Source of the DNA: Arhodomonas aquaeolei DSM 8974
Lineage (GTDB): Bacteria; Pseudomonadota; Gammaproteobacteria; Nitrococcales; Nitrococcaceae
Assembly (NCBI RefSeq): GCF_000374645.1
Contig: NZ_KB894806.1
Coordinates: forward strand, 1-64,000
Length of the DNA: 64,000 nucleotides
Direction of reading: 5' to 3'
How positions within the stretch are numbered: position 1 is the first letter of the stretch; each line of letters begins with the position of its first letter. The translations under genes were made by a program, and so were the position numbers. The notes beneath the pieces were generated by a model. The model did no database searches. It saw only the letters and a program-made list of their open reading frames with translations, and had not been told where the DNA came from. Shown piece after piece: positions 9,107-27,032 of the stretch.

Positions 9107-9122
9107 GTCGGTTCCGCTCCGG

Positions 9123-9665
9123 TCACTCCTCGCCCAGCTCTTCGATGGTGAGGTGGTGATTGGTGTAGATGCAGATGTCGGCGGCGATGTGCAGCGAGCG
9201 CTCGACGATCTCGCGGGCGCCGAGCTCCGTGTTGTCCATCAGCGCGGTGGCCGCGGACTGCGCGAAGCCGCTGCCGGAGCCGATCGCGATGAGGTCGCGC
9301 TCGGGCTCGACCACGTCGCCGTTGCCGGAGATCATCAGCGTGGTGTCCCGGTCGGCGACCAGCAGCAGCGCCTCCAGCCGGCGCAGCGCGCGGTCGGAGC
9401 GCCAGTCCTTGGCCATCTCCACGGCGGAGCGGGTGAGGTTGCCGCGGTGCTTCTCGAGCTGGCCCTCGAAGCGCTCGAACAGTGTGAACGCGTCCGCGGT
9501 GCCGCCGGCGAAGCCCGCGATCACACGCTCGTGGAACAGCCGGCGCACCTTGCGCGCGTTGCCCTTCATCACGGTATCGCCGAGGGTGACCTGGCCGTCG
9601 CCGCCGAGCGCGACCCGGCCCTGCCGGCGGGCGGCGAGGATGGTGGTGCCGTCGAATTGCCTCAC
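9123..9665 (-). CDS. hslV: HslV, peptidase subunit of the HslUV protease
   Basis: The 180-residue threonine protease of the proteasome beta family begins [14 protein letters not shown] from a GTG start. Family comparison shows the propeptide is cut before the first Thr of GTTIL (Thr7), which becomes the catalytic N-terminal nucleophile. [21 protein letters not shown] and [17 protein letters not shown] are classic HslV blocks. The longer open frame upstream (to 9872) crosses the promoter, so GTG at 9665 is preferred. Confidence 0.95.
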
Positions 9666-9736
9666 GTTGGTGCTCCGGACTGCCTCGAATGGATGCGCGA
9701 CGGCCCCGCCGGGCCGCCGGCGCGGCGATTGTACAA

Positions 9737-9765
9737 CGGTGGGGCGCACCGCGACGCCTTTCAAG
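9737..9765 (-). promoter_or_regulatory. Sigma-32 (heat shock) promoter of hslVU
   Basis: Reading on the minus strand, CTTGAAA (9765-9759, in a CCCTTGAAA context) is followed after 14 nt by CCCCACCG (9744-9737). This closely matches the RpoH consensus CTTGAAA / CCCCATNT. Predicted transcription starts near 9730, giving a leader of about 65 nt before the hslV GTG. hslVU is a textbook heat-shock operon. Confidence 0.75.
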
Positions 9766-9784
9766 GGCGACGGTGGTGTGGCAC

Positions 9785-9950
9785 CAACTCTCATTGTGGC
9801 AATGCGTGCCGGCTCGATGACGGCCCGGGCTAACGTTGCCCTGTTCTCAAGCGCGGCGGCGATGTCGCACACGGCCTGCCGGACCGGGTAGGTCGTGCGC
9901 CGAAGGCGTGCGACGTCTCGCCAGCCGTTTCATGTGCGCCTGCGATCTGT
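9785..9950 (+). repeat. Left copy of a ~150-bp diverged inverted repeat flanking the hsd operon
   Basis: Segments such as TAACGTTgCCCTGTTC (9831-9846), GATGTCGCACACGGCC (9861-9876) and GGGTAGGTCGTGCGCC (9886-9901) recur in the same order, reverse-complemented, at about 18885-19045. The two copies differ by scattered substitutions and short indels. The copy starts within about 20 bp of the hslV promoter and so marks the left edge of the defence island. I see no open frame or known RNA in it. Confidence 0.75.
9888..9915 (+). repeat. REP-like element inside the left inverted repeat
   Basis: GTAG (9888-9891) is followed by GTCGTGCGCC, a GAA loop and GGCGTGCGAC. The arms pair with two G-T wobbles in the middle. 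It is the same design as the element at 391-418. Confidence 0.55.
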
Positions 9951-9990
9951 GCCGGGGCATGGGGAGGGGAGCGGTGGCCTCGCGCCCATA

Positions 9991-12900
9991 TTATTCGCGA
10001 AGCCTGCTGTACACCTCGCGTAACAAATGTTCTCGGGCGACTTGCCGGAAGTCGTCGTCATTCATCAAACGCCCGAAAATTTCCTCGTTGCCGTCCATGC
10101 GCTCGATGAACAGGCTTTCCAGCATCCTGTTGAACACGTATGCGAAATTTTCCATTGAGTTCGCCTGCGCCGCTTCGCGCAGGGTGTCGTTTTCGACCGC
10201 ACTTTCTGCGATCTGGTCGAAGAACAGCTGATCGGCCGGCGTGAACTCCGTGCCGAAGCGCTCGTTCAGCCTCCTGATAAGCGTGGACAGCTCCACGTTT
10301 TCGTCCTCGGCGCGGCCTGTGCCCACTTCCTTTGGGCCGTACAGGGGCTCCGGTTCCCCTACGCCCAGATCGATTGCCCCCTCGCTGATCTTCTGTAGCC
10401 GGTAATACTGAAGGGAAACCTCGTCGTCCAGCTCGAAAACGGCGTCGTCAGCGCGGCGTGGCAGCTTGGACAGCAGGAAGCGGCCATAGCTGTAGAGCTT
10501 CTCCAGGCTGCTGTCCTGATAAGGGATGATCTGTGCCAGGAAGGCATACAGGTTGCGGAAACTGGTGAGCTGGCCCTTGAACTGCTCCTGGTGGTCTTCG
10601 TCCAGGGCCTGGTAGCGCGTCACCGCCTGGTCGAGGATGGCATTGATCTTCTGGTGGTCGGCCGCCGTGGGCTCGCTGCGGTTCTTGTACCAGATCTCCG
10701 CGAAGGCGCTGACCTCATCCGGGGCGAACACCTGGGCTTCCTCTAACCGGTGCTGCAAGTCGTAGAGCTGATGGGGATCGGTGGGTTTCCCCTGCGGCGT
10801 AACCTCGTAATAGGGCTTGAACGCCTCGTAGATCTCACCGGGCTCGTTGGCGAAATCCAGCACGAAGGTGTCCTCCTTACCCGGCGCCGTTCGGTTCAGC
10901 CGGGACAGGGTCTGCACGGCCTGGATTCCCGATAGGCGCCTGTCCACATACATGGTATGCAGCAGTGGCTGGTCGAACCCGGTCTGGTATTTCTCCGCCA
11001 CCAGCAGCACCTGATAGTGCTCCGAGGCGAACCGGTCCGGCAGCTCGGTTTCCTTGATACCGTCGTTCATGCCCACTTCCGTGTACGACTGCCCGGGAAA
11101 ATCCGGGTCGGTGACGCTGCCGGAGAAGGCCACCAGGGAGCGGATGCCGGTAATGCGGTGGTCCTGGATGTACTTGTCGAACGCCTGCTTGTAGCGCACG
11201 GCGTGCAGGCGCGAGGCGGTGACCACCATGGCCTTGGCCCGGCCGCCGATGCGGTGGCGGGTGTTGTGGCGGAAGTGCTCGACGATCACCTCCACTTTCT
11301 GGGCGATATTGTGGGGGTGCAGGGACATGAAGCGCGCCAAGGCCCTGGCCGCCTTGCGCTTGGGTACTTCCGGATCATCGTCGATGGATTTGATCAGCCC
11401 GTAATAGGTCTTGTAGGTGGTGTAGTTCTCCAGCACGTCCATGATGAAGCCTTCCTCGATGGCCTGACGCATGGAGTACAGGTGAAAGGGCGGCTGGCCG
11501 TCCGGGCCGGGCTCGTTGAACACCGCCTGGGTCTTGAACTTGGGCGTGGCGGTGAAGGCGAAGAAGCTGATGTTGGGCTGGCGGGGGCGCTTGAGCATCT
11601 CCTCGAACAGCTTCTTGCGCGCCTCCTCGGAGAGATCCTCCTCCTCCACGTCCAGGAACTCCTCCGCGATGGCCGACTCGATGCCGTCGCGGTTGAGCAC
11701 CTTGCGCAGCTCCATGGCCGTCTCGCCGGACTGGGAGCTGTGGGCCTCGTCCACGATCACCGCGAAGCGCTTGCCTTCCGTGCTCAGCTCCACTTCCTCG
11801 CCCTTATTCGCCAGGGTGTCCATGGCCTGGGTAATGAAGGGGAACTTCTGGATGGTGGAGATGATGATGGGCACGCCGGAGGACAGCGCCTGGGCGAGCT
11901 GCTGGGTGTTCTCGTCGATCTTCTGCACCACTCCCTGCTTGTGCTCGAACTGGTAGATGGTGTCCTGCAACTGCTGGTCCAGCACTCGCCGGTCGGTAAC
12001 CACCACTACGGTGTCGAATACCTTGTGGTCGTCGGTGTCGTGCAGGCTGGCCAGGCGATGGGCGAGCCAGGCGATGGAATTGGACTTGCCCGAGCCCGCG
12101 GAGTGCTGCACCAGGTAGTTGTGGCCCGGTCCCTGCGCCCGGGCGCTGGCCACCAGTTGCCGCACCGCGTCCAACTGGTGGTATCGGGGGAAGATCAACG
12201 CTTCCTTGCGGTGGCGTTTCACCCCCTTCTTCGTCGTGACCTTGTTTTCCGTCACTTCCAGGTGCAGGAACCGAGCGAGGATGTCCATCAGGCTGTCGCG
12301 GGCGAGCACCTGCTCCCACAGGTAGCTGGTGCGGTAGCCGCCCTCTTCGGCGGGCGGATTGCCGGCGCCGAAGTCGTGGCCGCGATTGAAGGGCAGGAAG
12401 GTCGTCTGGGCGCCGTTCAGCCGCGTGGTCATGAACGCCTGATCCGGGTCCACGGCGAAATGCACCAGCGCCCGCTCCTTGAAGCGGAAGATCGGCTCGT
12501 CCGGGTCGCGGTCGTTGCGGTACTGGTGGATGGCGTCATCCGCCGTCTGCCCGGTCATGGGGTTCTTCAGCTCCAGGGTGACCACCGGCAGGCCGTTTAC
12601 CGACAGCACCATGTCCAGGGATTGGTGGGGATGGGTCTCGCTGAAATGCACCTGCCGGGTCACGCGCAGGCGATTGTGGCCGTAGGCCGCGGCGGCCTCG
12701 GGGTTCATGTCCGTGTTGGGCGCGAAGTAGGCCAGCCGGAAGGTCTTGCCGAAGCACTTGAAGCCGTGACGCAGCACATGCAGGGCGTTCTTCGAGGCCA
12801 GTTCCTTCACCAGCGCCCCCAGCAGCGCTTCACCGGCCTGGTCGCCGTGGAGCTTTACCAGGGACTGCCAGCGCTGCGGCTGGCTGGCCTGGATAAAGCT

Positions 12901-13023
12901 GGTCACCTCGTGAGGGAAGAGCCCGCGCGCCGGGTCGAAGCCCTGGCGGTCGCCCTGCTCATAGCCGCCGTACTCGGTCAGTGACCGTTCCATGGCCTGC
13001 TCGAAGTAGGTCTCCTGATGCAT
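9991..13023 (-). CDS. hsdR: Type I restriction endonuclease subunit R (HsdR)
   Basis: The 1010-residue motor-nuclease subunit has, in order, a PD-(D/E)xK nuclease core (Asp137 and Glu151-Leu-Lys153 in VTLELKNP, with a downstream QYRND), Walker A HSAGSGKS (307-314), DEAH box (425-428), the FFAFTATPKFKT motif, and a C-terminal helicase lobe with GFDQPLLHTMYVDRRL and QTLSRLNR. It cuts DNA after translocation when HsdM and HsdS find unmethylated target sites. It is the last gene of the minus-strand operon, 141 bp after the DUF3800 gene. Catalytic residues look intact. Confidence 0.95.
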   Translation of the reverse strand: MHQETYFEQAMERSLTEYGGYEQGDRQGFDPARGLFPHEVTSFIQASQPQRWQSLVKLHGDQAGEALLGALVKELASKNALHVLRHGFKCFGKTFRLAYFAPNTDMNPEAAAAYGHNRLRVTRQVHFSETHPHQSLDMVLSVNGLPVVTLELKNPMTGQTADDAIHQYRNDRDPDEPIFRFKERALVHFAVDPDQAFMTTRLNGAQTTFLPFNRGHDFGAGNPPAEEGGYRTSYLWEQVLARDSLMDILARFLHLEVTENKVTTKKGVKRHRKEALIFPRYHQLDAVRQLVASARAQGPGHNYLVQHSAGSGKSNSIAWLAHRLASLHDTDDHKVFDTVVVVTDRRVLDQQLQDTIYQFEHKQGVVQKIDENTQQLAQALSSGVPIIISTIQKFPFITQAMDTLANKGEEVELSTEGKRFAVIVDEAHSSQSGETAMELRKVLNRDGIESAIAEEFLDVEEEDLSEEARKKLFEEMLKRPRQPNISFFAFTATPKFKTQAVFNEPGPDGQPPFHLYSMRQAIEEGFIMDVLENYTTYKTYYGLIKSIDDDPEVPKRKAARALARFMSLHPHNIAQKVEVIVEHFRHNTRHRIGGRAKAMVVTASRLHAVRYKQAFDKYIQDHRITGIRSLVAFSGSVTDPDFPGQSYTEVGMNDGIKETELPDRFASEHYQVLLVAEKYQTGFDQPLLHTMYVDRRLSGIQAVQTLSRLNRTAPGKEDTFVLDFANEPGEIYEAFKPYYEVTPQGKPTDPHQLYDLQHRLEEAQVFAPDEVSAFAEIWYKNRSEPTAADHQKINAILDQAVTRYQALDEDHQEQFKGQLTSFRNLYAFLAQIIPYQDSSLEKLYSYGRFLLSKLPRRADDAVFELDDEVSLQYYRLQKISEGAIDLGVGEPEPLYGPKEVGTGRAEDENVELSTLIRRLNERFGTEFTPADQLFFDQIAESAVENDTLREAAQANSMENFAYVFNRMLESLFIERMDGNEEIFGRLMNDDDFRQVAREHLLREVYSRLRE

Positions 13024-13115
13024 CGTCGCCTCGTCTGCCCTCAGGCACTTGAAACGGCCTTCATATAGGCCGATAATGTCGGCAAATGGACTGGGAGTTC
13101 CCGGTCGGCGATACG

Positions 13116-13138
13116 GCCTCGGTGAGTCTCACCGGGGC
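13116..13138. other. Stem-loop between the DUF3800 gene and hsdR
   Basis: GCCTCGGTGA (13116-13125) and TCACCGGGGC (13129-13138) form a 10-bp stem with one G-T pair and a 3-nt loop. On the hsdR-sense strand no U tract follows, so an intrinsic terminator is unlikely. It may modulate hsdR relative to hsdMS. Confidence 0.35.
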
Positions 13139-13164
13139 CTTTCGCTTTTCAGCCCCTTGATTTT

Positions 13165-13920
13165 TCATGGAAACTTCTTCAGCCCCAACCCGTCGTAACC
13201 GTTCCCGGTATTATCGCGGCCACCCCTGCAATAGAACTTGTCCTCAAGCACGCGGAATGCACGATTGTCCTGCTCCGGACGCAGCACACGCAACCCGATG
13301 GGCCTGGCGACCAGATCAGCAAGTTGCAAACCGGCTGAATTGGTTTTTTTGTCCGCGAATATCGCTGAAAAAGGAAGCGGTTGCCTGAACCAGTTCGCTC
13401 CATCGCATACCCGACGGAATTCCAGCTCAAGCTCGTCGTCTTCCCTTTGGCCTCTGCGTTCCAGCACGACATGTGTGATCTTATTGTGCTGATTTTTTTC
13501 CTTTAAGAAGCGATAGATACGCTCAAGCCCGAACGCCAGCGCGAGATGGTAGGGGTTGGCGGGATATTCATACCTTTCGCGAAGCCTTTTCTTTTCAATA
13601 ACGCAACTAACGAGCACAAAGTTACTGCTCTCGACAATATCCGTAAGCTCACCGAGAAACTGGTTTTTATGTTCTCGGTTGCTAAAAATAGAAAATTCTC
13701 CCCTTTCCTTGCGGATATCGTGCTCATGGAGGATGGCCAGATCATGCCCAAAATGCTTGAATTTGAATTTTTGCACCTTCTCGACAACGGTTTCTGAATA
13801 GTGCCGTTTGTTAAAAATGCAAAACGCGAGAACGAAAACTGGATAATGGGGGTCCACGCTGGCCAAACCATGGTCGCCGCTCTCGTCGACATAGACAATA
13901 AAATCACTAAAACCGGGCAT
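13165..13920 (-). CDS. DUF3800 domain protein inside the hsd operon
   Basis: The 251-residue protein opens with the DUF3800 hallmark YVDESGDHG (Asp12, Glu13), continues with VVLERRGQ (Glu154) and ends with LQLADLVARP (199-205, Asp202). These acidic residues are spaced like an RNase H-like active site, so metal-dependent nuclease activity is suspected but unproven for the family. It starts 3 bp after the hsdS stop and precedes hsdR, so it is probably co-transcribed as an accessory defence gene. Its bases are visibly more AT-rich than those of the housekeeping genes around the island, a sign of transfer. Confidence 0.85.
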   Translation of the reverse strand: MPGFSDFIVYVDESGDHGLASVDPHYPVFVLAFCIFNKRHYSETVVEKVQKFKFKHFGHDLAILHEHDIRKERGEFSIFSNREHKNQFLGELTDIVESSNFVLVSCVIEKKRLRERYEYPANPYHLALAFGLERIYRFLKEKNQHNKITHVVLERRGQREDDELELEFRRVCDGANWFRQPLPFSAIFADKKTNSAGLQLADLVARPIGLRVLRPEQDNRAFRVLEDKFYCRGGRDNTGNGYDGLGLKKFP

Positions 13921-13923
13921 GAT

Positions 13924-15288
13924 TCAGGCCACCTGGATCTGGCCGGTGACGGCGTTAGTAATCAGCGCGGAGCGGTATTCTTCGAGCCTTCCAACAGCGC
14001 TTTCGATTCGCGACTGAAGTTGATCAAAATGAACCACCGCAGAACCCAGCCATTGATCTATTTCTCGTTGTTCTTCTGCTGGCGGACATGCGAATGTCAA
14101 GTCTTTCAACGTATCCTGGCCGATATTTTGCATTGACCCACTTGTCCCTGTCCCTTCGCGTTCATACTGAAATCGGGATGGGACTGAACGCAGCACTCTT
14201 ACAAGAAAGCCATTATCGATATTGTCCCTGGTCTCTAGCCGATAAAGCTTGTCGCACAGCAGAATTTTGCTTTGCGTCTTGTCCACCAGGGTCGCACTTC
14301 CGAGCAATTCCCTCGTATTGGCTCGGCTGATCAAAATATCTCCCTGGCGAATCTCGTACCGTTCTTTTGGGGAAAGCTCGACGGGCAGAGCCTTGTTCTC
14401 GGTCTCATCGTACGCGTCCCCGTTGACGCAACCGACCTTGAGCACACCCCATTCACCGATATTGGCTGGACGGTTTTGGCATTGAGGCGACCAGCCCTGT
14501 TCTATTTTCTCGGTCAAATGCCGGAGCCGGACAATCACCCAATGCGCCGGAATCTCCCCCAGCCACTCGATGCCGCTGTCTTTCATGGGGGCGTCAGGGT
14601 TAAGCCCCTTGGTGACGGCGCGGGTGATCAGGGCAGTGCGCTTTTCGGCCAGCCGGTCGAGCAGGCGACGCTTTTTGGCGATCAGGGTGTCGATCTCGGC
14701 GGTCTTGCGGTCGAGGAAGTCGGCGATTTTCTGCTGATAGGAAAGGGGAGGGATCTTCGCTACAGCATTCCTGAGTGCATATTGCGAAAGCCCGAACCGC
14801 GTAACGCCCTTTGCCGCCAATTTAAACTGATCGTTCAGGACAGGGGATTGCGCAAGCCACGCCAGGAACCGGCCATCTACCTCGTCATCATCGGGATCAA
14901 CGATCGCGAGGTGGTAACCACAGACAACGTCGGGCATCGTTTCCGCAACACAGGCGGGGACAGCGATGTCGTCCCAGCTCTCGCTGTCTTTGGTTAATAG
15001 AACCTGGCCCTCCTTCAGGCCAAAGCGCCGGATCTCGCTTTCTGTCGCCGTGGCCTGCATGAATGGCAGGTCCGAGGTAATGCGCTCGTTGTAGTAGACA
15101 TCGGTATAGTTGCAAAGCCTGACTGGGGTCTCACCGTCAACGATGTGCTTGTCGACGTTGCTGGTGCGGACCTCGGCGAGAAATTTGAGCTTCCGTTCTT
15201 TCCAAGCGTTTTCCGCCGGGATGTCGGCTGCGGTGCCATTCGCTTGCGTTGTCACTGGGGCTTCCCCCGCTTTATTTCCTGCTCCCAC
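13924..15288 (-). CDS. hsdS: Type I restriction-modification specificity subunit (HsdS)
   Basis: The 454-residue protein has two target-recognition domains (about residues 25-185 and 235-425), each followed by a helical conserved region. The central one reads QQKIADFLDRKTAEIDTLIAKKRR and continues into RTALITRAVTKGLN; the C-terminal one includes LQSRIESAVGRLEEYRSALI. Recognition domains of this kind set the bipartite DNA target of both methylation and cleavage. The gene overlaps the end of the rhuM pseudogene by 37 bp if the first Met is used. Composition is more AT-rich in the second half, which may reflect domain shuffling. Confidence 0.93.
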   Translation of the reverse strand: MGAGNKAGEAPVTTQANGTAADIPAENAWKERKLKFLAEVRTSNVDKHIVDGETPVRLCNYTDVYYNERITSDLPFMQATATESEIRRFGLKEGQVLLTKDSESWDDIAVPACVAETMPDVVCGYHLAIVDPDDDEVDGRFLAWLAQSPVLNDQFKLAAKGVTRFGLSQYALRNAVAKIPPLSYQQKIADFLDRKTAEIDTLIAKKRRLLDRLAEKRTALITRAVTKGLNPDAPMKDSGIEWLGEIPAHWVIVRLRHLTEKIEQGWSPQCQNRPANIGEWGVLKVGCVNGDAYDETENKALPVELSPKERYEIRQGDILISRANTRELLGSATLVDKTQSKILLCDKLYRLETRDNIDNGFLVRVLRSVPSRFQYEREGTGTSGSMQNIGQDTLKDLTFACPPAEEQREIDQWLGSAVVHFDQLQSRIESAVGRLEEYRSALITNAVTGQIQVA

Positions 15289-16263
15289 GCCTCCAGCTCC
15301 CTCAGGTCTTCTTCATCGGCCTCCGCCGCCTCGTCCTGCCGCCGCTGGGCGTCGAACTGCTCGTAGCGCTCGTGGGCGATCTGCTCCGCTTGCCTGGCGC
15401 TGATGGAGCCCGCCCCTTCCAGCACCGGCCGTTCGTTAAACTCCAACAGCCGGTCCACGTTGTTGCGCCAGTAGTCCAGGGTCAGGTCGTTGTGGTTCTG
15501 CACGCGTAGCTCGGCCTGCTCGAGGAAGATGGCCACCAGGCGGTTGAGGGTGTCCACCTCCTCGGCGGTGAGGTAGTTCTTGGCGGTGGTGACATCCTGC
15601 TTGCGCACCCGCGAGCCCTGCCAGTTGGTTAGGGCCATGTTGGGCTCGCCGGGGTCGGCGCGGTTGACCACGATCTCGGCGGCGGTGTGGCCGGTGACGG
15701 CGTAGGAGTTTGTTCTGAACCTCAGCAAAGAATCGGTTGGCCTCTTGGTCGTCGGAGCGGTAGTCGCTGGAGAGGGCGAAGAGGTCGCGCACTTTCTGGT
15801 AGAAGCGCTTCTCCGACGCGCGGATGTCGCGGATGCGGGCCAGCAGCTCGTCGAAGTAGTCCCACCCGCCGGGCTCCTTCAGGCGCTCGTCGTTCATGGC
15901 GAAGCCCTTGACCAGGTACTCCTCCAGGTGGGCGGTGGCCCACTGGCGGAACTGGGTGCCGCGCGGCGAGCGCACCCGGTAGCCCACGGCGAGGATCATG
16001 GGCAGGCTGTAGGCCTTGAGGCGCCGCCGGACCCGGCGCTCGCCTTCCTGGCGAACTTGTAAGGAATCCTTACAAGTTGCCTCGGGGCCCAGCTCGCCTT
16101 CCTCATAGATCGTGCGGATGTGCTGGGTGATGGCCTGGGGCGTGGTGTCGAACAGCTCCGCCATCTCCGCCTGGGTCAGCCAGGCGGTATCCCCTTCTAG
16201 ACGGAGGTGGATTTCCGCCCGACCGTCCTCCGTTCGATAGAGGATGAGCTCCCCGGCGCTCAT
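15252..16263 (-). pseudogene. RhuM-family protein, frameshifted
   Basis: The first frame from ATG 16263 gives the RhuM N-terminal domain: ILYRTEDGRAEIHLRLEGDTAWLTQAEMAELFDTTPQAITQHI, then YRVRSPRGTQFRQWATAHL. It runs to FFAEVQNKLL near 15715. The family continues with YAVTGHTAAE, but that segment and the rest (MALTNWQGSRVRKQDVTTAKNYL, then EVDTLNRL, ending at 15252) are in another frame. A net shift near 15708-15716 (best explained as 2 nt lost) separates the halves. The function of RhuM proteins is unclear; they often sit in type I R-M operons. The start overlaps the hsdM stop (ATGA). A sequencing error is the alternative. Confidence 0.8.
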
Positions 16264-18431
16264 TCGGTCACCCTGTTCAGCATCTCCAGGATCTCCTTTT
16301 CCAGCCCCTGGATATCGCTTTCGATCTCCTCCAGCGGTCGGGGCGGCTCGTAGACGTAGAAGTGCCGGGTGATGGGGATTTCGTAGCCCACCCTGGTTTT
16401 GCCGTGGTCGATCCAGGCGTCGTCGACGAAGGGCAGCACCTCGCGGGCGAGGTAGTCCTCGCAGTGCTCGCGTACCAGTTCCAGCAGCGTGCTGTTGTCG
16501 GCGTCCTTGTCATAGCCGATGGGCAGCGGCAGCGGGATATCCGCGGGCAGGGGGACGATCTCGGTATCGCGCAGCTCGGTATCCGGCTCGGGGTTGCCGT
16601 CCTTATCGCGGCAGATGGCCGCTTCCGGGGCGCGCTCGGACAGGGCCTTCAGAATGGCTTCCCTGAGCGGCTTGAGAAGCTTCTCATTAGCGTCCTTGAA
16701 GGCCGCCTTCAGGACGGTTTCGAACTCGGCCCGGTCGGTGTAGAGGGTGTCATCCATGCCCTGTAGGATCTCGATGATGCGCTGCTGGGTGGCCTCGCCG
16801 GCCTGGACCTCGGCGTCGTGCTCGGCCTGGTCCTTGCGCTTCTTGCTCTTGGCCAGGTTGATGAAGGCGGTTTCCTGCCAGAGCCGCTCGATGCGCTCGG
16901 CGCTGGCCTGGAAATTGAGCCGCAGGGGGCGTTCGACGGTGAGCTTCAGGTAACCGAAGTCCCGGTTGTCGAAGACCTTGGAGCAAACGCGCTCTTCCCG
17001 CTCTCCATTCTGGCCAACCGTGCAAGTGGCGCCGTCGGTGAAATCGCCGTAAAGGCGGGTGAGCTCCTCGATGTGCTCGTCGCCCAGTTCGTTGCGCTTC
17101 TCCCCCAGGCTCTTACTCATCTTGCGGTAGTGGCGGGTGCCGTCGACGAGTTGCACCTTGCCCTTGCGGTGGTCCGGCTTGCGGTTGGTGACCAGCCAGA
17201 TGTAGGTGTAGATGCCGGTGTTGTAGAAGAGTTGGTCCGGCAGGGCGATGATGGCGTCCAGCCAGTCGTTTTCGATGATCCAGCGGCGGATGTTGCTTTC
17301 GCTGGGTCCGGGCTCACCGTTGAACAGGGGGGAGCCGTTGAAGACGACCGCGATCTTGGAGCCCTCTCCCCGCTGTTCCGGCGCAGCCTTCATCTTGCTG
17401 ATCATGTGCAGCAGGAACAGGGTGGCGCCATCGTTGATGCGCGGCAGGCCGGGGCCGAAACGCCCGTTGAAACCCAGCGCCTGGTGCTCCTTCTTGACGT
17501 AATCCTCCTCCGGCTTCCACTCCACGCCGAAGGGTGGGTTGGCGAGCATGTAGTGGAAGGTCTTGTCCGGGTGGCCGTCGCCCGTTTCGCTATCCCCCAG
17601 GGTGTCGCCAAAGGCGATGTTATCCACGGGCTCGTCCTTGATCAGCAGGTCTGAACGGCAGATGGCCCACGATTCCTCGTTGTACTCCTGGCCGAACAGC
17701 TCAAGATGCGCCTGGGGATTCTGCTCGGTGATGTATTCCTCGGAAACGGAGAGCATCCCGCCGGTACCCGCGGTGGGATCATAGATCGTGCGCGCGATGC
17801 CGGGAGTATAGATCTCCTCGTCCTGGGTATAGAGCAGGTGCGCCATCAGGCGGATCACCTCGCGCGGGGTGAAGTGGTCGCCCGCCTCCTCGTTCGCCTG
17901 CTCATTGAAACGGCGGACCAGCTCCTCGAACACGTAGCCCATGTCGTGGTTGCTGATCCGATCCGGATGCAGGTCGATCTTCGGGTCGGTGAACGCCTTG
18001 ACGATGAGATACAGGCGGTTGGCCTTGTCCAGTTTCTCGATCTCCGACTCAAAGTCGAAGGCCTCGAACACGACCCGCGCCGACTCGGAGAAGCCGTTGA
18101 TGTAGCTGGTCAGGTTCGTGGCGATGTTCTCCGGGTCGGCAAGGAGCTTCTCAAAGGTATAGGGGCTAATGTTGTAAAGGGGGTAATTGCGGCCCTTGCT
18201 TGCCTTTCCTGCCAGTACCCGATGAAGCGCCTCGCCCTCCAGGCCCTGCGCCTGCAGTTTTTTGTACTCCGCGAGCACTTGCTCCTTGGTTGGCGCGAGC
18301 ACGCAGTCCAGCCGGCGCAGCACCGTCATCGGCAGCATTACCTTGCGGTACTGGGGCGGGCGATAGGGGCCTCGGAGCTTGTTCGCGATTTCGAAGACGA
18401 AATTGATGAGGTTGGCAGTACTGGTCGACAT
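16260..18431 (-). CDS. hsdM: Type I restriction-modification methyltransferase subunit (HsdM)
   Basis: The 723-residue N6-adenine methyltransferase has an N-terminal HsdM_N helical domain (about residues 5-140), the SAM-binding motif DPTAGTGGML (218-227) and catalytic motif NPPFG (298-302). A long C-terminal region for HsdS binding follows, ending in the helical segment EEIESDIQGLEKEILEMLN. The motif-I residue is Ala in place of the more usual Cys, which is tolerated. It is the first gene of the operon and is divergent from jetA; an AAAGGGC sequence precedes the ATG. Confidence 0.95.
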   Translation of the reverse strand: MSTSTANLINFVFEIANKLRGPYRPPQYRKVMLPMTVLRRLDCVLAPTKEQVLAEYKKLQAQGLEGEALHRVLAGKASKGRNYPLYNISPYTFEKLLADPENIATNLTSYINGFSESARVVFEAFDFESEIEKLDKANRLYLIVKAFTDPKIDLHPDRISNHDMGYVFEELVRRFNEQANEEAGDHFTPREVIRLMAHLLYTQDEEIYTPGIARTIYDPTAGTGGMLSVSEEYITEQNPQAHLELFGQEYNEESWAICRSDLLIKDEPVDNIAFGDTLGDSETGDGHPDKTFHYMLANPPFGVEWKPEEDYVKKEHQALGFNGRFGPGLPRINDGATLFLLHMISKMKAAPEQRGEGSKIAVVFNGSPLFNGEPGPSESNIRRWIIENDWLDAIIALPDQLFYNTGIYTYIWLVTNRKPDHRKGKVQLVDGTRHYRKMSKSLGEKRNELGDEHIEELTRLYGDFTDGATCTVGQNGEREERVCSKVFDNRDFGYLKLTVERPLRLNFQASAERIERLWQETAFINLAKSKKRKDQAEHDAEVQAGEATQQRIIEILQGMDDTLYTDRAEFETVLKAAFKDANEKLLKPLREAILKALSERAPEAAICRDKDGNPEPDTELRDTEIVPLPADIPLPLPIGYDKDADNSTLLELVREHCEDYLAREVLPFVDDAWIDHGKTRVGYEIPITRHFYVYEPPRPLEEIESDIQGLEKEILEMLNRVTE

Positions 18432-18884
18432 TTGCGCCCTTTGTCCACTTTTACTGGGGCCCGCTTCGTTGGTTCGGGCCCGGAGCGGGGCGGGAAGAGT
18501 GGTCCTTTGATAGCGGCCGGCGTCGGCGCCCTATTCCCTGTTAGCAGTTGCAACGGAACGGCCAGGACGGCGGACACCGCCAAATCGCACGCGAACCTTG
18601 CCGGTATTTGTTCCGGATACGGCACGTCCGACGTGTTGCCCGGCGGTTTACCCTCGGCTCGGCTGGTAATCCTGGGACCCGGCTTGCTCGCCTCGATGCT
18701 ATGCGCCACGACTCGTGGCGTCAGTCATTGTCGGGCGTGCATTGCTGGTCCGGCAAGGCAGGCCATTGGAATGGCCATGCAGATATCGACCCGGGCCACT
18801 GGTGTCCCGTGTCTTTCGTTGTCTGTCCCAACAGGGCGAGGGTCAGCAAATTCTTCTGGCGCGCCGTCCGGCTGAACCGGTCGC

Positions 18885-19045
18885 AGGCACGCATGAAACG
18901 GCCGAGACGTCGCACGCCTGCGGCGCACGACCTACCCGCGTGTGCAGCCGGACGTCGGCCGTGTGCGACATCGCCACTGCGGTGAACAGGGTAACGTTGG
19001 CCCTGGAGTGTCGTTGAGCCACCATGCATTGTCACAATCGGAATT
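18885..19045 (-). repeat. Right copy of the ~150-bp diverged inverted repeat flanking the hsd operon
   Basis: Reverse-complemented, this stretch aligns with 9785-9950 through TAACGTTaCCCTGTTC, GATGTCGCACACGGCC, GGGTAGGTCGTGCGCC and GCGTGCGACGTCTCG, then CCGTTTCATG. It is opposite in orientation to the left copy and ends about 60 bp before the jetA start. Confidence 0.75.
18908..18935 (-). repeat. REP-like element inside the right inverted repeat
   Basis: On the minus strand GTAG (18935-18932) is followed by GTCGTGCGCC, a GCA loop and GGCGTGCGACG. It is nearly identical to the unit at 9888-9915. Confidence 0.55.
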
Positions 19046-19101
19046 GCCGGGTGATGGTTTGCATCGTAGACGCGGGCGATCACGGCACGGAAACTGTCCA
19101 C

Positions 19102-20547
19102 ATGGACTACGATCACGCCCGTTACCTGCGCCGCAATCATCCGGCGTGGCGGCTGCTCACCGCCGACAGCGCGCCCCTGATCGTCGGCTTTCTCCACCAC
19201 GCCTTTATCGGCCCCAACGTTCGGGCCCTGGGCGAGCAGGAGCTGGCGGCGCAGTTGGAGGACTACCTTTTCCATCTGCGCGAAAGCGAGGGTGAGGATG
19301 CCTTCCCGCGGGCCGCGCTGGATTATCTCAACGACTGGGCCGGAGACGACCGGGGCTGGCTGCGTCGCTACTACCCCACGGACAGCGACGAGCCCCACTA
19401 CGACCTCATGCCCGCCACGGAGAAGGCCATACAGTGGGTGGTGGGACTGGAAGAGCGAGTGCAGTTCGTCGGTGCCGAGTCGCGCTTGCGCACGGTCTTT
19501 GATCTTCTCCACGAGCTGGTTCAGGGCGCGGAGACCGATCCCCAGGCTCGCATCGATGAGTTGAAGCGCCAGCGCGCGGAGGTCGACGCGCAGATCGAGC
19601 GCATTCAGGCTGGTGAGCTGGAGCAGATGAACCCGACCCGGCTGCGCGAGCGTTTCCTCCAGGCCACTGGCACCGCCCGGGCGCTGCTGGCGGACTTCCG
19701 CCAGGTGGAACAGAACTTCCGCGAGCTGGACCGGGCGGTGCGCGAGCGCATCGCTACCTGGTCCGGCGGCCGCGGCGAGCTCCTGGAGGAGGTGTTCGGC
19801 GAGCAGGACGTCATCGCCGAGTCCGATCAGGGCAGGAGCTTCCGCGCGTTCTGGGATTTCCTCATGTCGCCGGCACGCCAGGAGGAGCTCACCGAGCTGC
19901 TGGAACGGGCGCTGTCGCTGGAGCCTGTCGCCGAGCTGGAGCCGGACCCGCGCGTGCGCCGCATCCACTACGACTGGCTGGAGGCCGGCGAGACCACCCA
20001 GCGCACGGTGGCCCGGCTCTCCCAGCAGCTGCGCCGTTACCTGGATGACCAGGCCTGGCTGGAGAACCGGCGGATCATGGACCTGATCCGCGACATCGAG
20101 CAGCACGCCGTGGCCCTGCGGGAAAGCCCGCCCAGCGGCGACGTGATGGCGCTGGACGAGCCCTCGCCCACCGTGGAGTTGCCCATGGAACGGCCCCTGT
20201 TCACCCCGCCGGTCAAGCCCGACATCCGCGACCAGGTATTGGTGGAGGGTGACGAGGACATCGACCCGGAGGCGTTGTTCGAGCAGGTCTACGTGGACCG
20301 CGAGCGCCTGCGCGGGCACATCCGCCGGGCCCTGAACCGCCACTCCCCGGTAAGCCTGGCGGCGGTGATCCGCGAGCATCCGCTGGAACAGGGCCTTGCT
20401 GAGCTGGTCACCTACCTGGCCCTGGCCAGCGAGGACCCGGACTCGGTTATCGAGGACAGTCAGACCGATCACGTGGAATGGATCGACGCCGACGACGTTA
20501 TCCGTCGCGCCGCCGTACCCCGGGTGCTGTTCAGCCGCGGCGCCTGA
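19102..20547 (+). CDS. jetA: Wadjet type I JetA (DUF3375, kleisin-like)
   Basis: The 481-residue DUF3375 protein begins MDYDHARYLRRNHPAWRLLTADSAPLIVGFLH and carries a helical middle part (ELKRQRAEVDAQIERIQAGE) and a conserved MERPLFTPP segment. In type I Wadjet (JetABCD), JetA is the kleisin of an SMC-like complex that extrudes and cleaves circular plasmid DNA. I chose the ATG at 19102 because the DUF3375 homology begins there; an upstream in-frame start at 19024 would run back into the inverted repeat. The ribosome binding site is weak. A 289-bp gap with REP-like hairpins separates it from jetB. Confidence 0.92.
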   Translation: MDYDHARYLRRNHPAWRLLTADSAPLIVGFLHHAFIGPNVRALGEQELAAQLEDYLFHLRESEGEDAFPRAALDYLNDWAGDDRGWLRRYYPTDSDEPHYDLMPATEKAIQWVVGLEERVQFVGAESRLRTVFDLLHELVQGAETDPQARIDELKRQRAEVDAQIERIQAGELEQMNPTRLRERFLQATGTARALLADFRQVEQNFRELDRAVRERIATWSGGRGELLEEVFGEQDVIAESDQGRSFRAFWDFLMSPARQEELTELLERALSLEPVAELEPDPRVRRIHYDWLEAGETTQRTVARLSQQLRRYLDDQAWLENRRIMDLIRDIEQHAVALRESPPSGDVMALDEPSPTVELPMERPLFTPPVKPDIRDQVLVEGDEDIDPEALFEQVYVDRERLRGHIRRALNRHSPVSLAAVIREHPLEQGLAELVTYLALASEDPDSVIEDSQTDHVEWIDADDVIRRAAVPRVLFSRGA

Positions 20548-20704
20548 GCCGCCGCGCTTTGGCAGCCCGGCGCGGCCGCGCGAGGGGGTGCGGTCGTCGC
20601 GGGGCGATTCCCTCGGCGAAGCTGGGCTTGCGTGTTGTTCCAGGACAGATCTCCTGCGGGAGCCGACACGTGCCCAACAGCAACACGCCGGGGCACGGCG
20701 CCAC

Positions 20705-20790
20705 GTAGGCCGGCATTGGCCGGAGAGGACGCCGATATCCATGACGGCCGGCGGGCCCGGGATGTCGGGCACCAAGCGTGCCCGACCTAC
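20705..20790. repeat. Paired REP-like (BIME-like) elements between jetA and jetB
   Basis: On the minus strand GTAG (20790-20787) heads a perfect 9-bp stem, GTCGGGCAC and GTGCCCGAC (20764-20772 and 20778-20786). A second, weaker GTAG-headed unit in the opposite orientation starts at 20705 (GTAGGCCGGCATTGGCCGG). Two head-opposed REPs form a BIME-like module. Nothing else is recognised in 20548-20836. Confidence 0.6.
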
Positions 20791-20836
20791 GGGCTACGGG
20801 CATGATCCAAGCGCCAACAACGCTTACCATAGACGC

Positions 20837-21472
20837 ATGACGGACAACGATTACGAGACCGCGCCCACCGCCCTCGACGGCGACCGCCTGTCCCAGGTGC
20901 TGGTGGCCCTGTTCCGCGGCGTGCTCCATCGAGACAGCGCGCCGCAGCTCTGGCAGGGGCTGCTGAACCTGCAGGCCCGTGTGCGGGACTATGTCGCCGT
21001 GCTGGGCCTGGAGCTGATCCTGGACGAGGCCGAGGGCTACGCCTTTCTGCGCCAGCGCCCCCGGGACCCGGACGCCGGCGACGAGCTGCCGCGGCTGGTG
21101 GCGCGGCGCCAGCTCAGCTACCCGGTGAGCCTGCTGCTGGCCCTGCTGCGCAAGAAGCTGGCCGAGCACGACGCCACCGGCGGCGACACTCGGTTGGTGC
21201 TCTCCCGCGAGCAGATCGTCGAGCAGATACGGGTGTTCCTCCCGGAGACCGCCAACGAGGCCAGGCTGCTGGATCGCATGGACAGTCACATCAAAAAGGC
21301 CGTGGAGCTGGGTATGCTGCGGCGCATGCGCGGCCAGGAGGAGCGCTTCGAGGTCCGCCGTATCCTCAAAGCCTTCGTCGACGCCCAGTGGCTTGGCGAG
21401 CTGGACGAACGGCTGCGCGCCTACCGGGCCTACATCGGGGGCACTGGCAGCGACGCCGCCGCGGAGGGATGA
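20837..21472 (+). CDS. jetB: Wadjet type I JetB (DUF4194)
   Basis: The 211-residue DUF4194 protein is made of winged-helix segments, as in MukE-like partners of SMC complexes. LSQVLVALFRGVLHRDSAPQLWQGLL opens the domain; LELILDEAEGYAFLRQR and ARRQLSYPVSLLLALLRKKL follow. In Wadjet it binds the JetA kleisin and the JetC heads. The stop codon overlaps the jetC start (ATGA), so the two are translationally coupled. Confidence 0.92.
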   Translation: MTDNDYETAPTALDGDRLSQVLVALFRGVLHRDSAPQLWQGLLNLQARVRDYVAVLGLELILDEAEGYAFLRQRPRDPDAGDELPRLVARRQLSYPVSLLLALLRKKLAEHDATGGDTRLVLSREQIVEQIRVFLPETANEARLLDRMDSHIKKAVELGMLRRMRGQEERFEVRRILKAFVDAQWLGELDERLRAYRAYIGGTGSDAAAEG

Positions 21473-24400
21473 TGGAGCTGCAGCCGCTGGATTTCACCGC
21501 CTCCGAGGCCCGCGCCGGATTTCGCCTGCAGGCCACGGAGGTCTACAACTGGGGCACCTTCCACGACCGCGTCTGGCGCATCGAGCCCGGCGGCGACAAC
21601 GCCCTGCTCACCGGCGATATCGGCTCCGGCAAATCCACCCTGGTGGACGCCGTCACCACGCTGCTGGTGCCGGCCCAGCGCATCACTTACAACAAGGCCG
21701 CCGGTGCCGAGGCCCGGGAGCGCTCGTTGCGCTCGTACGTGCTGGGCTATTACAAGTCCGAGCGCGACGAGGCCGGCGCGGCGGCCAAGCCCGTAGCCCT
21801 GCGCGATCACAACAGCTACTCGGTGATCCTGGCCCGCTTTCGCAACGAAGGCTTCGACCACGACGTCACCCTGGCCCAGGTGTTCTGGGTCAAGGACCAG
21901 GGCCAGCCCCAGCGCTTCTACGTTGTGGCCGACGCGGCGCTGTCCGTCGCCGGCGATTTCGCCGACTTCGGCGCCGACATCAACGCCCTGAAGAAACGCC
22001 TGCGCGACGCGCCGCGGGTGGAGGTCCACGACACCTTTCCGCCCTACGGCGCGGCCTTCCGTCGGCGCTTCGGCATTAACGGCGAGCAGGCCCTGGAGCT
22101 GTTCAGTCAGACCGTGTCCATGAAGTCGGTGGGTAATCTCACCGAGTTCGTGCGCAGCCACATGCTGGAAGCCGCCCCGGTCGAGGAGAAGATCGAGGCG
22201 TTGATCGGCCACTTCGACGACCTCAATCGGGCCCACGATGCGGTGGTCAACGCCCGCCGCCAGATCGAGGCCCTGGAACCGCTGGTGGCCGATGCTGACC
22301 GCCACGCCGAGCTGAACAGCCAGGTGGAGCGTTGGCGGGCCTGCCGCGAGGCCCTGGAGCCCTGGTTTGCCGGGCTCAAGGCGGACCTGCTGGAGCAGCG
22401 CCTTGAGCGGCTGGGCGCCGATCTGGCCCGGACCGGCAGCCGCATTGAGCGACTGGACGAGCGCCGTCGGGGTCAGGGGGAGGAGCGCGACGAGCTGCGT
22501 CAGGCCATCGCCGAGCAGGGTGGCGACCGCCTGGAGCGCCTGGCCCGGGAGATCGAGGAGCGCCGCTGCGAGGAGCAGGCCCGGCGCGGGCGGGCGGAGC
22601 AGTATAACCGGCTGGCTCGATCCCTGGAGTTGCCCGAGGCGGCCGACGCAGACACCTTCCTGGACAACCAGCGGCGCCTGGCCGCCGAGCGCGCGCGCAC
22701 CGAGGCGCGTGCCGGCGAGCTGCAGAACCAGCGCACCGAGGCCGAGGTGGCCTTCCGCGAGTTGCGCGAGCAGCACGAGGCCATCGACACCGAGCTCACC
22801 TCCCTACGTCAACGCCGCACCAACCTGCCGGCGGCCAGCCTGGCCCTGCGCCAGCGTCTGTGCGAGGAGCTGGACCTTGAGCCTGAGGCCCTGCCCTTCG
22901 CCGGCGAGCTGATCCAGGTCCGCGACGACGAGCGCGACTGGGAGGGCGCCGCCGAGCGGCTGCTGCACAACTTCGGGTTGTCCCTGCTGGTGCCGGACAC
23001 GCACTACCCGGTGGTGGCCGAGTGGGTGGAGCGCACCCACCTGCGTGGCCGGCTGGTTTACTATCGGGTGCGCCAGCCCCGCGAGACCCGGTCGGCGGAC
23101 CTGCACCCGGACTCCCTGGTGCGCAAGCTGGCCATCCGCCCGGATTCGGCGTTCTATCCCTGGCTGGAGAAGGAGCTGGCCCGGCGCTTCGACTACGCCT
23201 GCTGCGCCGACCTGGCCCGCTTCCGCCGCGAGCCCAAGGCCGTCACTCGCGCCGGACAGATCAAGACCGGCGGCGAGCGCCACGAGAAGGACGACCGCCA
23301 CCGCATCGACGACCGCTCCCGTTTCATCCTGGGCTGGTCCAACGAGGCCAAGATCGCCGCCCTGGAAAAGCAGGCCGCCGACCTGCAGCAGCGCATGGCC
23401 GAGTCCGGCGATGAGATCGCCACCCTGCAGAAGCACGCCGGCGAGCTCCAGCAGCGGGCCACGGCCCTGGGCCAGCTGGAGATGTTCGCCGACTTTCGCG
23501 AGCTGGACTGGCGCGCCGTCACCAGCGAGATCGCCCGGCTGGAGGAGGAGAAACGCCATATCGAACAGGCCTCGGACCAGCTCCGCGCCCTGCAGGGCCA
23601 GCTGGAAGCGCTGGAGCAGGCCCGTGCGGAGACCGACGCCGAGCGGGAGAAGGCCCGGGACGAGCGCGCCAAGCTGGAGGAGCGCCGGGAGTGGGCTACC
23701 GAGGCCCTGGGGGCTGCCTGGGCGGTGCACCAGGCCGCTACCGACGCGCAGCGCGAGCAGGCCTTCCCGGCCCTACGGGACCTGCGCCCGGAGGCCCTCG
23801 GCGAGCAGCAGCTCACCGTGGAGTCCTGCGACAATCGCCAGTCCGACATGCGCCGCTGGCTGCAGGAGCGGATTGACCGGGAGGAGAAACAGCTCAAGCG
23901 CCTGGCCGAACGGGTGGTCAACGCCATGAGCGATTTCTGCCACAGCTGGCCCCTGGAGACCCGGGAGATGGACGCGAACCTGGCCGCCGCCGGCGAGTAT
24001 GCGGCCATGCTGGCGACCCTCAGGGACGATGACCTGCCGCGCTTCGAGCAGCGCTTCAAGGCGCTGCTCAACGAGAACACCATTCGAGAGGTGGCCAGCT
24101 TCCAGGCCCATCTCAACCGCCAGCGCCAGGGCATCCGCGAGCGCATCGACATCATCAACCGCTCCCTGCACGGCATCGACTTCAACCAGGGACGCTACAT
24201 CGAGCTGCTGGCCGAGCCCGCCGTCGACGTGGAGATCCGGGACTTCCAGCGTGACCTGCGCAGCTGTACCGAGGGCACCATCGGCGCCGATGACGACGCT
24301 GCTTACTCCGAGGCCAAGTTCCTGCAGGTGCGCGGGATCATCGAGCGGCTGCGCGGCCGGGAGGGCACCGCCGAGGCGGACCGGCGCTGGCGGCGCAAGG

Positions 24401-24867
24401 TCACCGATGTGCGCAACTGGTTTACTTTCTCCGCCGAGGAGAAATGGCGCGAGGACGACAGTGCCTACGAGCACTACACCGACTCCGGCGGCAAGTCCGG
24501 CGGCCAGAAGGAGAAGCTGGCCTATACGGTGCTGGCCGCCAGCCTGGCCTACCAGTTCGGCCTGGAGGCCGGCGCCCGGCGCTCGCGGACATTCCGTTTC
24601 GTGGTCATCGACGAGGCCTTCGGCCGCGGCTCGGACGAGTCCGCCCGCTTCGGCCTGGAGCTGTTCCGGCGGCTTAACCTGCAGCTGCTCATCGTCACGC
24701 CGCTGCAGAAGATCCACATCATCGAGCCCTTCGTGGCCAGCGTGGGCTTCGTCCATTCCCCGGACGGCGCCCGCTCGATGGTGCGCAACCTCACCATCGA
24801 GGAATACCACGCCGAAAAGGCCGCCCGCACCGGCACGGGCCAGGCCGACGCCGCCCAGTCGCTGTGA
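21469..24867 (+). CDS. jetC: Wadjet type I JetC (SMC-like ATPase)
   Basis: The 1132-residue SMC/SbcC/MukB-like ATPase has Walker A GDIGSGKST (residues 49-57), two long coiled-coil arms rich in E, R, L and Q (about 290-480 and 630-830) around a hinge-like middle, an ABC signature SGGKSGGQKEK (from about 1005) and Walker B FVVIDEAFG (from about 1044). It supplies the ATP-driven loop extrusion in the JetABCD plasmid-defence complex. The start is either ATG of an ATGATG pair. It overlaps jetB by 4 bp and jetD by 4 bp, and all catalytic motifs look intact. Confidence 0.95.
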   Translation: MMELQPLDFTASEARAGFRLQATEVYNWGTFHDRVWRIEPGGDNALLTGDIGSGKSTLVDAVTTLLVPAQRITYNKAAGAEARERSLRSYVLGYYKSERDEAGAAAKPVALRDHNSYSVILARFRNEGFDHDVTLAQVFWVKDQGQPQRFYVVADAALSVAGDFADFGADINALKKRLRDAPRVEVHDTFPPYGAAFRRRFGINGEQALELFSQTVSMKSVGNLTEFVRSHMLEAAPVEEKIEALIGHFDDLNRAHDAVVNARRQIEALEPLVADADRHAELNSQVERWRACREALEPWFAGLKADLLEQRLERLGADLARTGSRIERLDERRRGQGEERDELRQAIAEQGGDRLERLAREIEERRCEEQARRGRAEQYNRLARSLELPEAADADTFLDNQRRLAAERARTEARAGELQNQRTEAEVAFRELREQHEAIDTELTSLRQRRTNLPAASLALRQRLCEELDLEPEALPFAGELIQVRDDERDWEGAAERLLHNFGLSLLVPDTHYPVVAEWVERTHLRGRLVYYRVRQPRETRSADLHPDSLVRKLAIRPDSAFYPWLEKELARRFDYACCADLARFRREPKAVTRAGQIKTGGERHEKDDRHRIDDRSRFILGWSNEAKIAALEKQAADLQQRMAESGDEIATLQKHAGELQQRATALGQLEMFADFRELDWRAVTSEIARLEEEKRHIEQASDQLRALQGQLEALEQARAETDAEREKARDERAKLEERREWATEALGAAWAVHQAATDAQREQAFPALRDLRPEALGEQQLTVESCDNRQSDMRRWLQERIDREEKQLKRLAERVVNAMSDFCHSWPLETREMDANLAAAGEYAAMLATLRDDDLPRFEQRFKALLNENTIREVASFQAHLNRQRQGIRERIDIINRSLHGIDFNQGRYIELLAEPAVDVEIRDFQRDLRSCTEGTIGADDDAAYSEAKFLQVRGIIERLRGREGTAEADRRWRRKVTDVRNWFTFSAEEKWREDDSAYEHYTDSGGKSGGQKEKLAYTVLAASLAYQFGLEAGARRSRTFRFVVIDEAFGRGSDESARFGLELFRRLNLQLLIVTPLQKIHIIEPFVASVGFVHSPDGARSMVRNLTIEEYHAEKAARTGTGQADAAQSL

Positions 24868-26102
24868 GCCCAAAGACCGCCTGGACCGACCCCGAGGACC
24901 TGCGCCGTCAGCTGGAAAAACGCTGGCGGCGCGGCGAGCTGCTGGCCGCCCGGGTCCACCGCGAATCCCCCTTCCCCTTGCGCCTGCGTCTTCGCACCCC
25001 CACCGGCGGCGAGGTGGCCGAGCACTTCGAGGCCGTCCGCGACTGGGTCCGAAACCTACGTGAGCACAGCCGCGAGGTCCGCGGCCACGGCTACCGGCTG
25101 GACTGGCAGCCGGTGCGCAACCGCGTCCACGGCACCAACCGGCTGCCCACCGCCGCCTGGGTGGCCGACGCCGACGATGCCCTGGCCCTGCTGGGCCGCA
25201 AGCAGGACGCCCGGCGCTTCGACGCGCTGGTGGAAACCACCCGGGCGCGCCAGCCGGCGTTGCTGGAATGGCTGGCCCGCCGGCCGCTCACCGCCCTGGA
25301 GCACGCCGAGGAATGGCCCCGGTTGCTGGCGGTGGTGGACTACCTCCAGGCCCATCCCCGCCCGGGGCTGTACCTGCGCCAGCTGGACATCCCCGGCGTG
25401 GACACCAAGTTCATCGGCAACCGCCGCCGCCTGCTGGCCGAGCTGCTGGATCTGGCGTTGCCCGAGTCCGCCGTGGACACTCGGCACACCGGGGCCCGCG
25501 GTTTCGAGGCGCGTTACGGCCTGCGCCAGCGCCCGCTGCGGCTGCGCTTCCGTGTGCTGGACCCGGCCCTGGCCATCCGCGGCCTCACCGACCTGGCCGT
25601 GCCGGTGGCGGAGCTCGCCGCCCTGGATCCGGACCAGGCCGAGCCGCCGGTGCGCACGGTGTTCATCACCGAGAACGAGATCAACGGCCTGGCCTTCCCC
25701 GACCACCCCGCCGGCCTGGTCATCTTCGGCCTGGGCTACGCGCTGGATCAGCTCGGCGCCATCCCCTGGCTGCACCGGGTGGCCGTCCATTACTGGGGCG
25801 ATATCGATACCCACGGCTTCGCCATCCTCGAGCGCCTGCGCAGCCACCTGCCCCATACCCGCTCCCTGCTCATGGACCGGGAGACCCTCGATGCCCACCA
25901 GGCCCTGTGGGTCAGCGAGGCCGCCGAGCAGCGCTTCACCGGCGAGCTCCACAGGCTCACCGGGGCCGAGCAGGCCCTGTTCCGCGACCTCCGTGACAAT
26001 GCCCTGGGAGCGAACCTGCGTCTGGAACAGGAACGAATCGGGTTCGGCTGGCTGGAGCGATACCTGTGCGAGCTTCCCTCAATGGCTGCGCCCCGGCGAT
26101 GA
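24864..26102 (+). CDS. jetD: Wadjet type I JetD (DUF3322-DUF2220, TOPRIM-like nuclease)
   Basis: The 412-residue protein joins an N-terminal DUF3322 domain (about 10-190; note the LYLRQLDIPGVDTKFI segment) to a C-terminal DUF2220 domain (about 210-400). In the latter, FITENEIN (around 264-271) and YWGDIDTHG (around 308-316) supply the Glu and DxD metal ligands of a TOPRIM fold like that of Spo11/topoisomerase VI. JetD is the subunit that cleaves DNA. It begins at a GTG overlapping the jetC stop and ends 15 bp from the convergent xerC. Confidence 0.93.
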   Translation: MSPKTAWTDPEDLRRQLEKRWRRGELLAARVHRESPFPLRLRLRTPTGGEVAEHFEAVRDWVRNLREHSREVRGHGYRLDWQPVRNRVHGTNRLPTAAWVADADDALALLGRKQDARRFDALVETTRARQPALLEWLARRPLTALEHAEEWPRLLAVVDYLQAHPRPGLYLRQLDIPGVDTKFIGNRRRLLAELLDLALPESAVDTRHTGARGFEARYGLRQRPLRLRFRVLDPALAIRGLTDLAVPVAELAALDPDQAEPPVRTVFITENEINGLAFPDHPAGLVIFGLGYALDQLGAIPWLHRVAVHYWGDIDTHGFAILERLRSHLPHTRSLLMDRETLDAHQALWVSEAAEQRFTGELHRLTGAEQALFRDLRDNALGANLRLEQERIGFGWLERYLCELPSMAAPRR

Positions 26103-26117
26103 CCGTCGCCGCAGCGG

Positions 26118-27032
26118 TCAGTCTCGCTTGCGCCGGGCCCGCGGGTGGGTGCGGTCGTAGACCTCGGCTAGGTGCTGGAAGTCCAGGTGGGTGTAGACCT
26201 GGGTGGTCGCGAGGCTGGCGTGGCCCAGCAGCTCCTGGACGGCGCGGAGGTCGCCGCTGGACTCCAGCAGGTGGGTGGCGAAGGCGTGCCGGAGCATGTG
26301 CGGGTGCACCGGGCGGCCGAGGCCGCGCTCGTCGGCGAGGGCGCGCAGGCGCTGCTGGATGGAGCGGTGGGCGAGCCGCCGGCCGCGGCGACTGACGAAC
26401 AGTGCCGGCTCGGTGGCCGGGGCCAGGCCCTCGCGTACGGTGAGCCACGCCTGCAGGGCCGCGCGGGCGGTGCGTCCGACCGGGACGATGCGGGTGCGCG
26501 CGCCCTTGCCGACGACGCGGAGGGTCTCCGGGTCGTGGGTGACGTCGGCGGCGTCCAGTGCCGCGACCTCGGCGAGGCGCAGGCCGCTGGAGTAGACCAG
26601 CTCGAACAGGGCACGGTCGCGCAGCGCCAGGGTGTCATCGTCGGCGGGGCCGTCGAGCAGCCGGGCGGCCTCGTCCACCGCCAGGGTCTCCGGCAGGCGG
26701 CGCCCGCTCTTCGGTGCGGTCACGTCGGCGGCGGGGTTGGCCGTCGCGATGCCCTCGCGCATGAGGTAGGCGAAGAAGGTGCGCAGGGCCGAAAGCGCCC
26801 GTGCCAGGGACCGTCCGCCGAGCCCGCGGCGGTGGCCGGCGGCGACGAAGGCGCGCACCTCGGCGCTGGTGACCCGCGACCAGTGCGTGGTGCCGGCGTC
26901 GCGGCAGTAGTGGGCAAAGGCCTCGAGGTCGCGGCGGTAGTGGTGACAGGTGGCAGCGGAGAGGCCGCGCTCGTCGCGGAGATGGGCGCCGAAGGCGGCG
27001 ACGCCGGCGTCGAGGTCGTCGACGTCAGCCAT
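26118..27032 (-). CDS. xerC: Tyrosine recombinase XerC
   Basis: The 304-residue protein has the SAM-like DNA-binding domain (about 8-95) and a catalytic domain with Arg152, Lys176, His245-x-x-Arg248, His271 and Tyr280 all in place. It resolves chromosome dimers at dif together with XerD. It overlaps the DUF484 gene by 8 bp and belongs to the lysA-dapF string. This context identifies it as housekeeping and not as the integrase of the neighbouring island. Confidence 0.94.
   Translation of the reverse strand: MADVDDLDAGVAAFGAHLRDERGLSAATCHHYRRDLEAFAHYCRDAGTTHWSRVTSAEVRAFVAAGHRRGLGGRSLARALSALRTFFAYLMREGIATANPAADVTAPKSGRRLPETLAVDEAARLLDGPADDDTLALRDRALFELVYSSGLRLAEVAALDAADVTHDPETLRVVGKGARTRIVPVGRTARAALQAWLTVREGLAPATEPALFVSRRGRRLAHRSIQQRLRALADERGLGRPVHPHMLRHAFATHLLESSGDLRAVQELLGHASLATTQVYTHLDFQHLAEVYDRTHPRARRKRD

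Follow-up and report, generated by a model that had tools for sequence, protein, structure and literature searches.

The jet genes and their products

The window (the whole stretch of 64,000 nucleotides that was analysed) contains four adjacent genes at positions 19102-26102, which have the same direction and the order A-B-C-D, with a spacer of 289 bp after jetA. The features of the locus are:

19102-20547, plus strand: jetA, kleisin subunit (DUF3375), 481 aa (Pfam, PADLOC and PDB matches)
20548-20836, no strand: jetA-jetB spacer, 289 bp, without coding signature (codon-position GC, spacer lengths of relatives)
20764-20790, minus strand: REP element GTAGGTCGGGCACGCTTGGTGCCCGAC within the spacer, member of a genome-wide family
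20837-21472, plus strand: jetB, KITE/MukE-like subunit (DUF4194), 211 aa (Pfam, PADLOC)
21469-24867, plus strand: jetC, MukB-like SMC ATPase, 1132 aa (Pfam, PADLOC, PDB, motifs)
24864-26102, plus strand: jetD, Toprim nuclease (DUF3322 and JetD_C), 412 aa, GTG start (Pfam, PADLOC, PDB)

A first-pass annotation had recognized the four-gene composition of a type I Wadjet system, and this was verified by Pfam and PADLOC matches for all four proteins at these coordinates. The annotation had made its case dependent on JetA and JetB matching DUF3375 and DUF4194, and in the HMM search both proteins did so. JetA reached 528 bits with Pfam DUF3375 (whole-protein score, cut-off 28.6) and 734 bits with PADLOC JetA1, and it matched the solved JetA 8dk1 in the PDB by sequence with an E value of 2.6e-23. 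For JetB the scores were 162 bits with DUF4194 (cut-off 32.7) and 306 bits with JetB1, and a solved JetB chain was also matched by sequence in the PDB. JetC scored 85 bits with AAA_29 and 84 bits with SbcC_Walker_B (cut-off 27) and 1645 bits with JetC1, with a PDB sequence match to the solved JetC 8dk2 (E 8.7e-78), while JetD scored 214 bits with DUF3322 and 204 bits with JetD_C (cut-off 22) and 498 bits with JetD1. Since the best PADLOC models were JetA1, JetB1, JetC1 and JetD1, the locus can be assigned by homology, with high confidence, to the canonical chromosomal type I Wadjet systems (jetABCD), and it appears to be complete. All four open reading frames are unbroken, without a stop or a frameshift, and the tight packing of jetBCD described before was found as well, with an overlap of 4 bp at both the jetB/jetC and the jetC/jetD junction.

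The catalytic motifs of JetC, i.e., Walker A (GDIGSGKST, from residue 49), the signature (SGGKSGGQKEK, from residue 1006) and Walker B (FRFVVIDEAF, from residue 1042), as well as the Toprim-like residues of JetD, are all present, as had been claimed. JetD contains TENE at 269 and WGDIDTHG at 311; E270 of the former as well as D313 and D315 of the latter (WGDID) align with conserved acidic residues of the solved JetD/MksG proteins, and E270 aligns with the residue that is altered in the E248A JetD of 8q72. Since the motifs are intact and the reading frames uninterrupted, activity would be expected, and the system is predicted to be a functional plasmid-defence machine that would cleave small plasmids.

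The locus was compared with the type I Wadjet systems (JetABCD) of E. coli GF4-3 and P. aeruginosa PA14 (8as8, 8dk2, 7til). The same four subunits, the A-B-C-D order and the ATPase and Toprim motifs are shared. In contrast to both systems, 289 bp lie between jetA and jetB, and the N-terminus of JetB is shorter, with no IFDR found in it. This N-terminal IFDR of JetB was reported to contact JetD, based on cross-linking (PMC10586767), and the contact is not family-defining for Wadjet type I. Even a loose pattern, [IVLM][FYWL]D[RK], was absent from the N-terminal region of JetB in the window (20837-20910) and in all relatives scanned (loci L027-L119). As no IFDR-like motif was found in the examined JetB N-termini of this clade, the contact between JetB and JetD may differ here, and the locus bears on the question of how JetD is recruited where JetB is devoid of the IFDR.

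The spacer between jetA and jetB

The length of 289 bp had been stated exactly in the first-pass annotation, which had also called the break unusual. This was confirmed by comparison with related loci, as the median gap was 2 bp among the 77 loci in which both jetA and jetB were measurable (one contig counted twice), and only six of them have a gap larger than 289 bp, in each case of at least 1 kb. The other two junctions have medians of -8 bp (B-C) and -4 bp (C-D) in the related loci, compared to -4 bp at both in the window.

The spacer looks noncoding, because the GC content at the three codon positions is flat (0.70/0.69/0.73 in the frame of jetB), compared to 0.76/0.41/0.88 in jetA. Of the REP-like hairpins that had been proposed for this region, one clear element was found at 20764-20790 on the minus strand, while the other predicted stems barely exceeded shuffled sequences (z = -2.2), which is a mild effect. 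No sigma-70-like promoter site was found in the spacer, and an Rfam search of the window yielded no match. The possibility that the spacer is a repeat element along its full length was rejected, because no more than short fragments of it (about 24-48 bp) have further copies in the genome. The idea that JetB reaches N-terminally into the spacer was likewise discarded, based on the flat codon-position GC and on the JetB proteins of relatives, which start near the annotated ATG.

REPs are defined by a GTAG/GTGG head that is followed by a palindrome (PMC3686654), and the element in the spacer has this head and palindrome and belongs to sequences dispersed between genes. The pattern GTAGGTCG-N(10-24)-CGAC has 190 matches in the genome versus 44 for the reversed control, and four matches in the window versus 0.1 expected. 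Genome-wide, the matches come in several arm variants, and the spacer element is divergent from the commonest REPs of the host. The GTAG head plus palindrome and the dispersal in the genome are shared with the REPs of gammaproteobacteria (PMC3686654); in contrast to these, no gene for a RAYT transposase was found, as Y1_Tnp (PF01797) had no match in the assembly. The REPs of this genome are thus apparently orphan; the abundance of REPs without an active RAYT is discussed in PMC3686654.

Insertions at the junctions of related loci

The A-B-C-D order is retained in most relatives. In six other loci jetA and jetB are at least 1 kb apart, and all six contain inserted ORFs at this position. The insert of L027 is an ORF that we take to be Rpn-like, for which no Pfam match was obtained. 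L028 contains PhdYefM, PIN, Uma2, a nucleotidyltransferase and a weakly HepT-like protein, L055 YhcG, L062 SIR2 and BrnT, and L081 a muramidase with SH3, to which the insert of L085 corresponds by similarity. At the B-C and C-D junctions DUF4258, SLFN_AlbA_2, a nucleotidyltransferase with HEPN, KilA-N and PIN were found. The inserted genes at the six large jetA-jetB gaps indicate that jet junctions accept insertions. Related loci are unevenly sampled and include some near-duplicates, so that these tallies are counts and not rates.

As a side observation, the inserts, which comprise toxin-antitoxin, nuclease, SIR2, KilA-N and muramidase genes (L027:2206-3281, L028, L029:6720-7327 and 10703-11633, L055, L058, L062, L081, L085), are mostly oriented as the operon.

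Interpretation of the locus

An MksBEF-type complex that organises the chromosome, instead of defending against plasmids, was considered as another identity of the locus. JetB indeed also matches Pfam MksE with 75.6 bits, and among solved proteins JetD is closest to MksG of Corynebacterium glutamicum (8b7f, E 5.3e-25). However, the MksBEFG system of this distant host differs from JetABCD in name but not in kind, and the two are treated as one system in PMC10586767, where MksBEF is described as lacking the nuclease, whereas jetD is present here, intact and overlapping with jetC. Furthermore, the matched PADLOC models are those of Wadjet type I, and the solved structures reported as matches for JetC comprise JetC chains but no MksB chain. 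The MksBEF identity is thus very improbable.

Assuming a type I Wadjet, the steps of its action can be inferred from the systems of E. coli and P. aeruginosa. Two JetC motors together with JetA as kleisin and JetB as KITE subunit would, by homology, assemble into a dimer of dimers. JetABC would load onto DNA and use ATP to reel it in by loop extrusion. If the DNA is a small circle, the extrusion would run to completion, the motors would stall, and the Toprim nuclease JetD would then cut. Such loading, extrusion, stalling on small circles and cutting by JetD have been described (PMC10586767), and in C. cellulovorans the native Wadjet is an obstacle to the conjugative transfer of plasmids into this host (PMC12287153). 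The locus adds one more system of type I that is intact as judged from its sequence, and it would likely be a barrier to small plasmids in the host.

We read the break between jetA and jetB as a case in which a REP of the host splits the operon, and not as a new architecture. The divergence of the spacer element from the commonest host REPs and the lack of a RAYT match in the genome speak against this reading. Two other origins of the spacer were weighed. It could have a function beyond the REP, by containing an internal promoter or a small RNA, or by encoding additional N-terminal residues of JetB if translation began further upstream. An open frame upstream of jetB, with a GTG at 20588 and two ATGs, and a fold slightly better than that of shuffled sequences are in accordance with this, but the flat codon-position GC, the start of JetB in relatives and the lack of a sigma-70-like site and of an Rfam match in the spacer argue against it, and such a function is judged to be quite unlikely. 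Alternatively, the spacer could be the scar of an accessory gene that had been inserted at the same junction as in the six relatives and was then lost. However, none of the open frames left in the spacer has a coding signature, and the REP alone explains at least part of the spacer, so that a scar is regarded as doubtful. Taken together, the locus is a complete and ordinary Wadjet of type I, in which a REP of the host lies between jetA and jetB. Most likely the REP splits the translational coupling of jetA and jetBCD, and it may alter the ratio or the stability of their messages, while the protein machine would remain unchanged.

The inserts in jet operons raise the question whether accessory genes cooperate with Wadjet or hitch-hike. 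It would be a rather bold speculation that the junctions are recurrent landing sites for defence genes, including toxin-antitoxin genes, which are co-transcribed and possibly guard Wadjet, and that the REP in the window represents the simplest case of this, by tuning the dosage of the kleisin versus that of the motor and nuclease. In a literature search no title or abstract described genes nested in jet operons; one paper examined more closely dealt with HicA fusions.

Genomic neighborhood

The jet operon is preceded by a type I restriction-modification cluster on the opposite strand, and it is followed by xerC and then by DUF484 and dapF. The features of the neighborhood are:

7784-9106, minus strand: ORF that is presumably HslU, from reading its translation
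9123-9872, minus strand: proteasome-family ORF, taken as hslV (annotation by family)
9785-9945, minus strand: inverted repeat on the hslV side (alignment with 18881-19046)
9991-18431, minus strand: type I restriction-modification cluster (Pfam, PADLOC), with the following five genes
9991-13023, minus strand: hsdR (Pfam/PADLOC)
13165-13920, minus strand: DUF3800 protein gene (Pfam/PADLOC)
13924-15288, minus strand: hsdS (Pfam/PADLOC)
15436-16263, minus strand: RhuM gene (Pfam/PADLOC)
16260-18431, minus strand: hsdM (Pfam/PADLOC)
18881-19046, plus strand: REP/BIME-like repeat upstream of jetA, inverted copy of 9785-9945 (alignment)
26118-27032, minus strand: xerC, a housekeeping gene at the border of the island (358.5 bits with NCBIfam XerC, above the cut-off)

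Because the HslU-like ORF follows the proteasome-family ORF on the same strand, the pair was taken as hslVU. In 11 of 13 relatives a proteasome-family gene is located at most 1.5 kb downstream of xerC, and one of the two exceptions runs into a contig end. In contrast, xerC and hslVU are about 16 kb apart in the window (7784-26117), with defence genes between them, which indicates that a defence island composed of the restriction-modification cluster and Wadjet lies between them. The GC content of the jet operon is near that of its surroundings, and together with the host REP in the spacer this suggests that the operon has been resident for a long time. The GC content of the restriction-modification cluster is lower, about 0.51-0.66.

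The REP-containing inverted repeats at 9785-9945 and 18881-19046 flank the restriction-modification cluster. They have an identity of 77% over 172 aligned columns, and a 36-nt core is 97% complementary. The 36-nt repeats were considered as ends of a mobile element, but this was rejected; they are more likely BIME-like copies, because many similar copies exist elsewhere in the genome. Within the cluster, the RhuM-family gene (PADLOC candidate family PDC-S05) lies between hsdM and hsdS.
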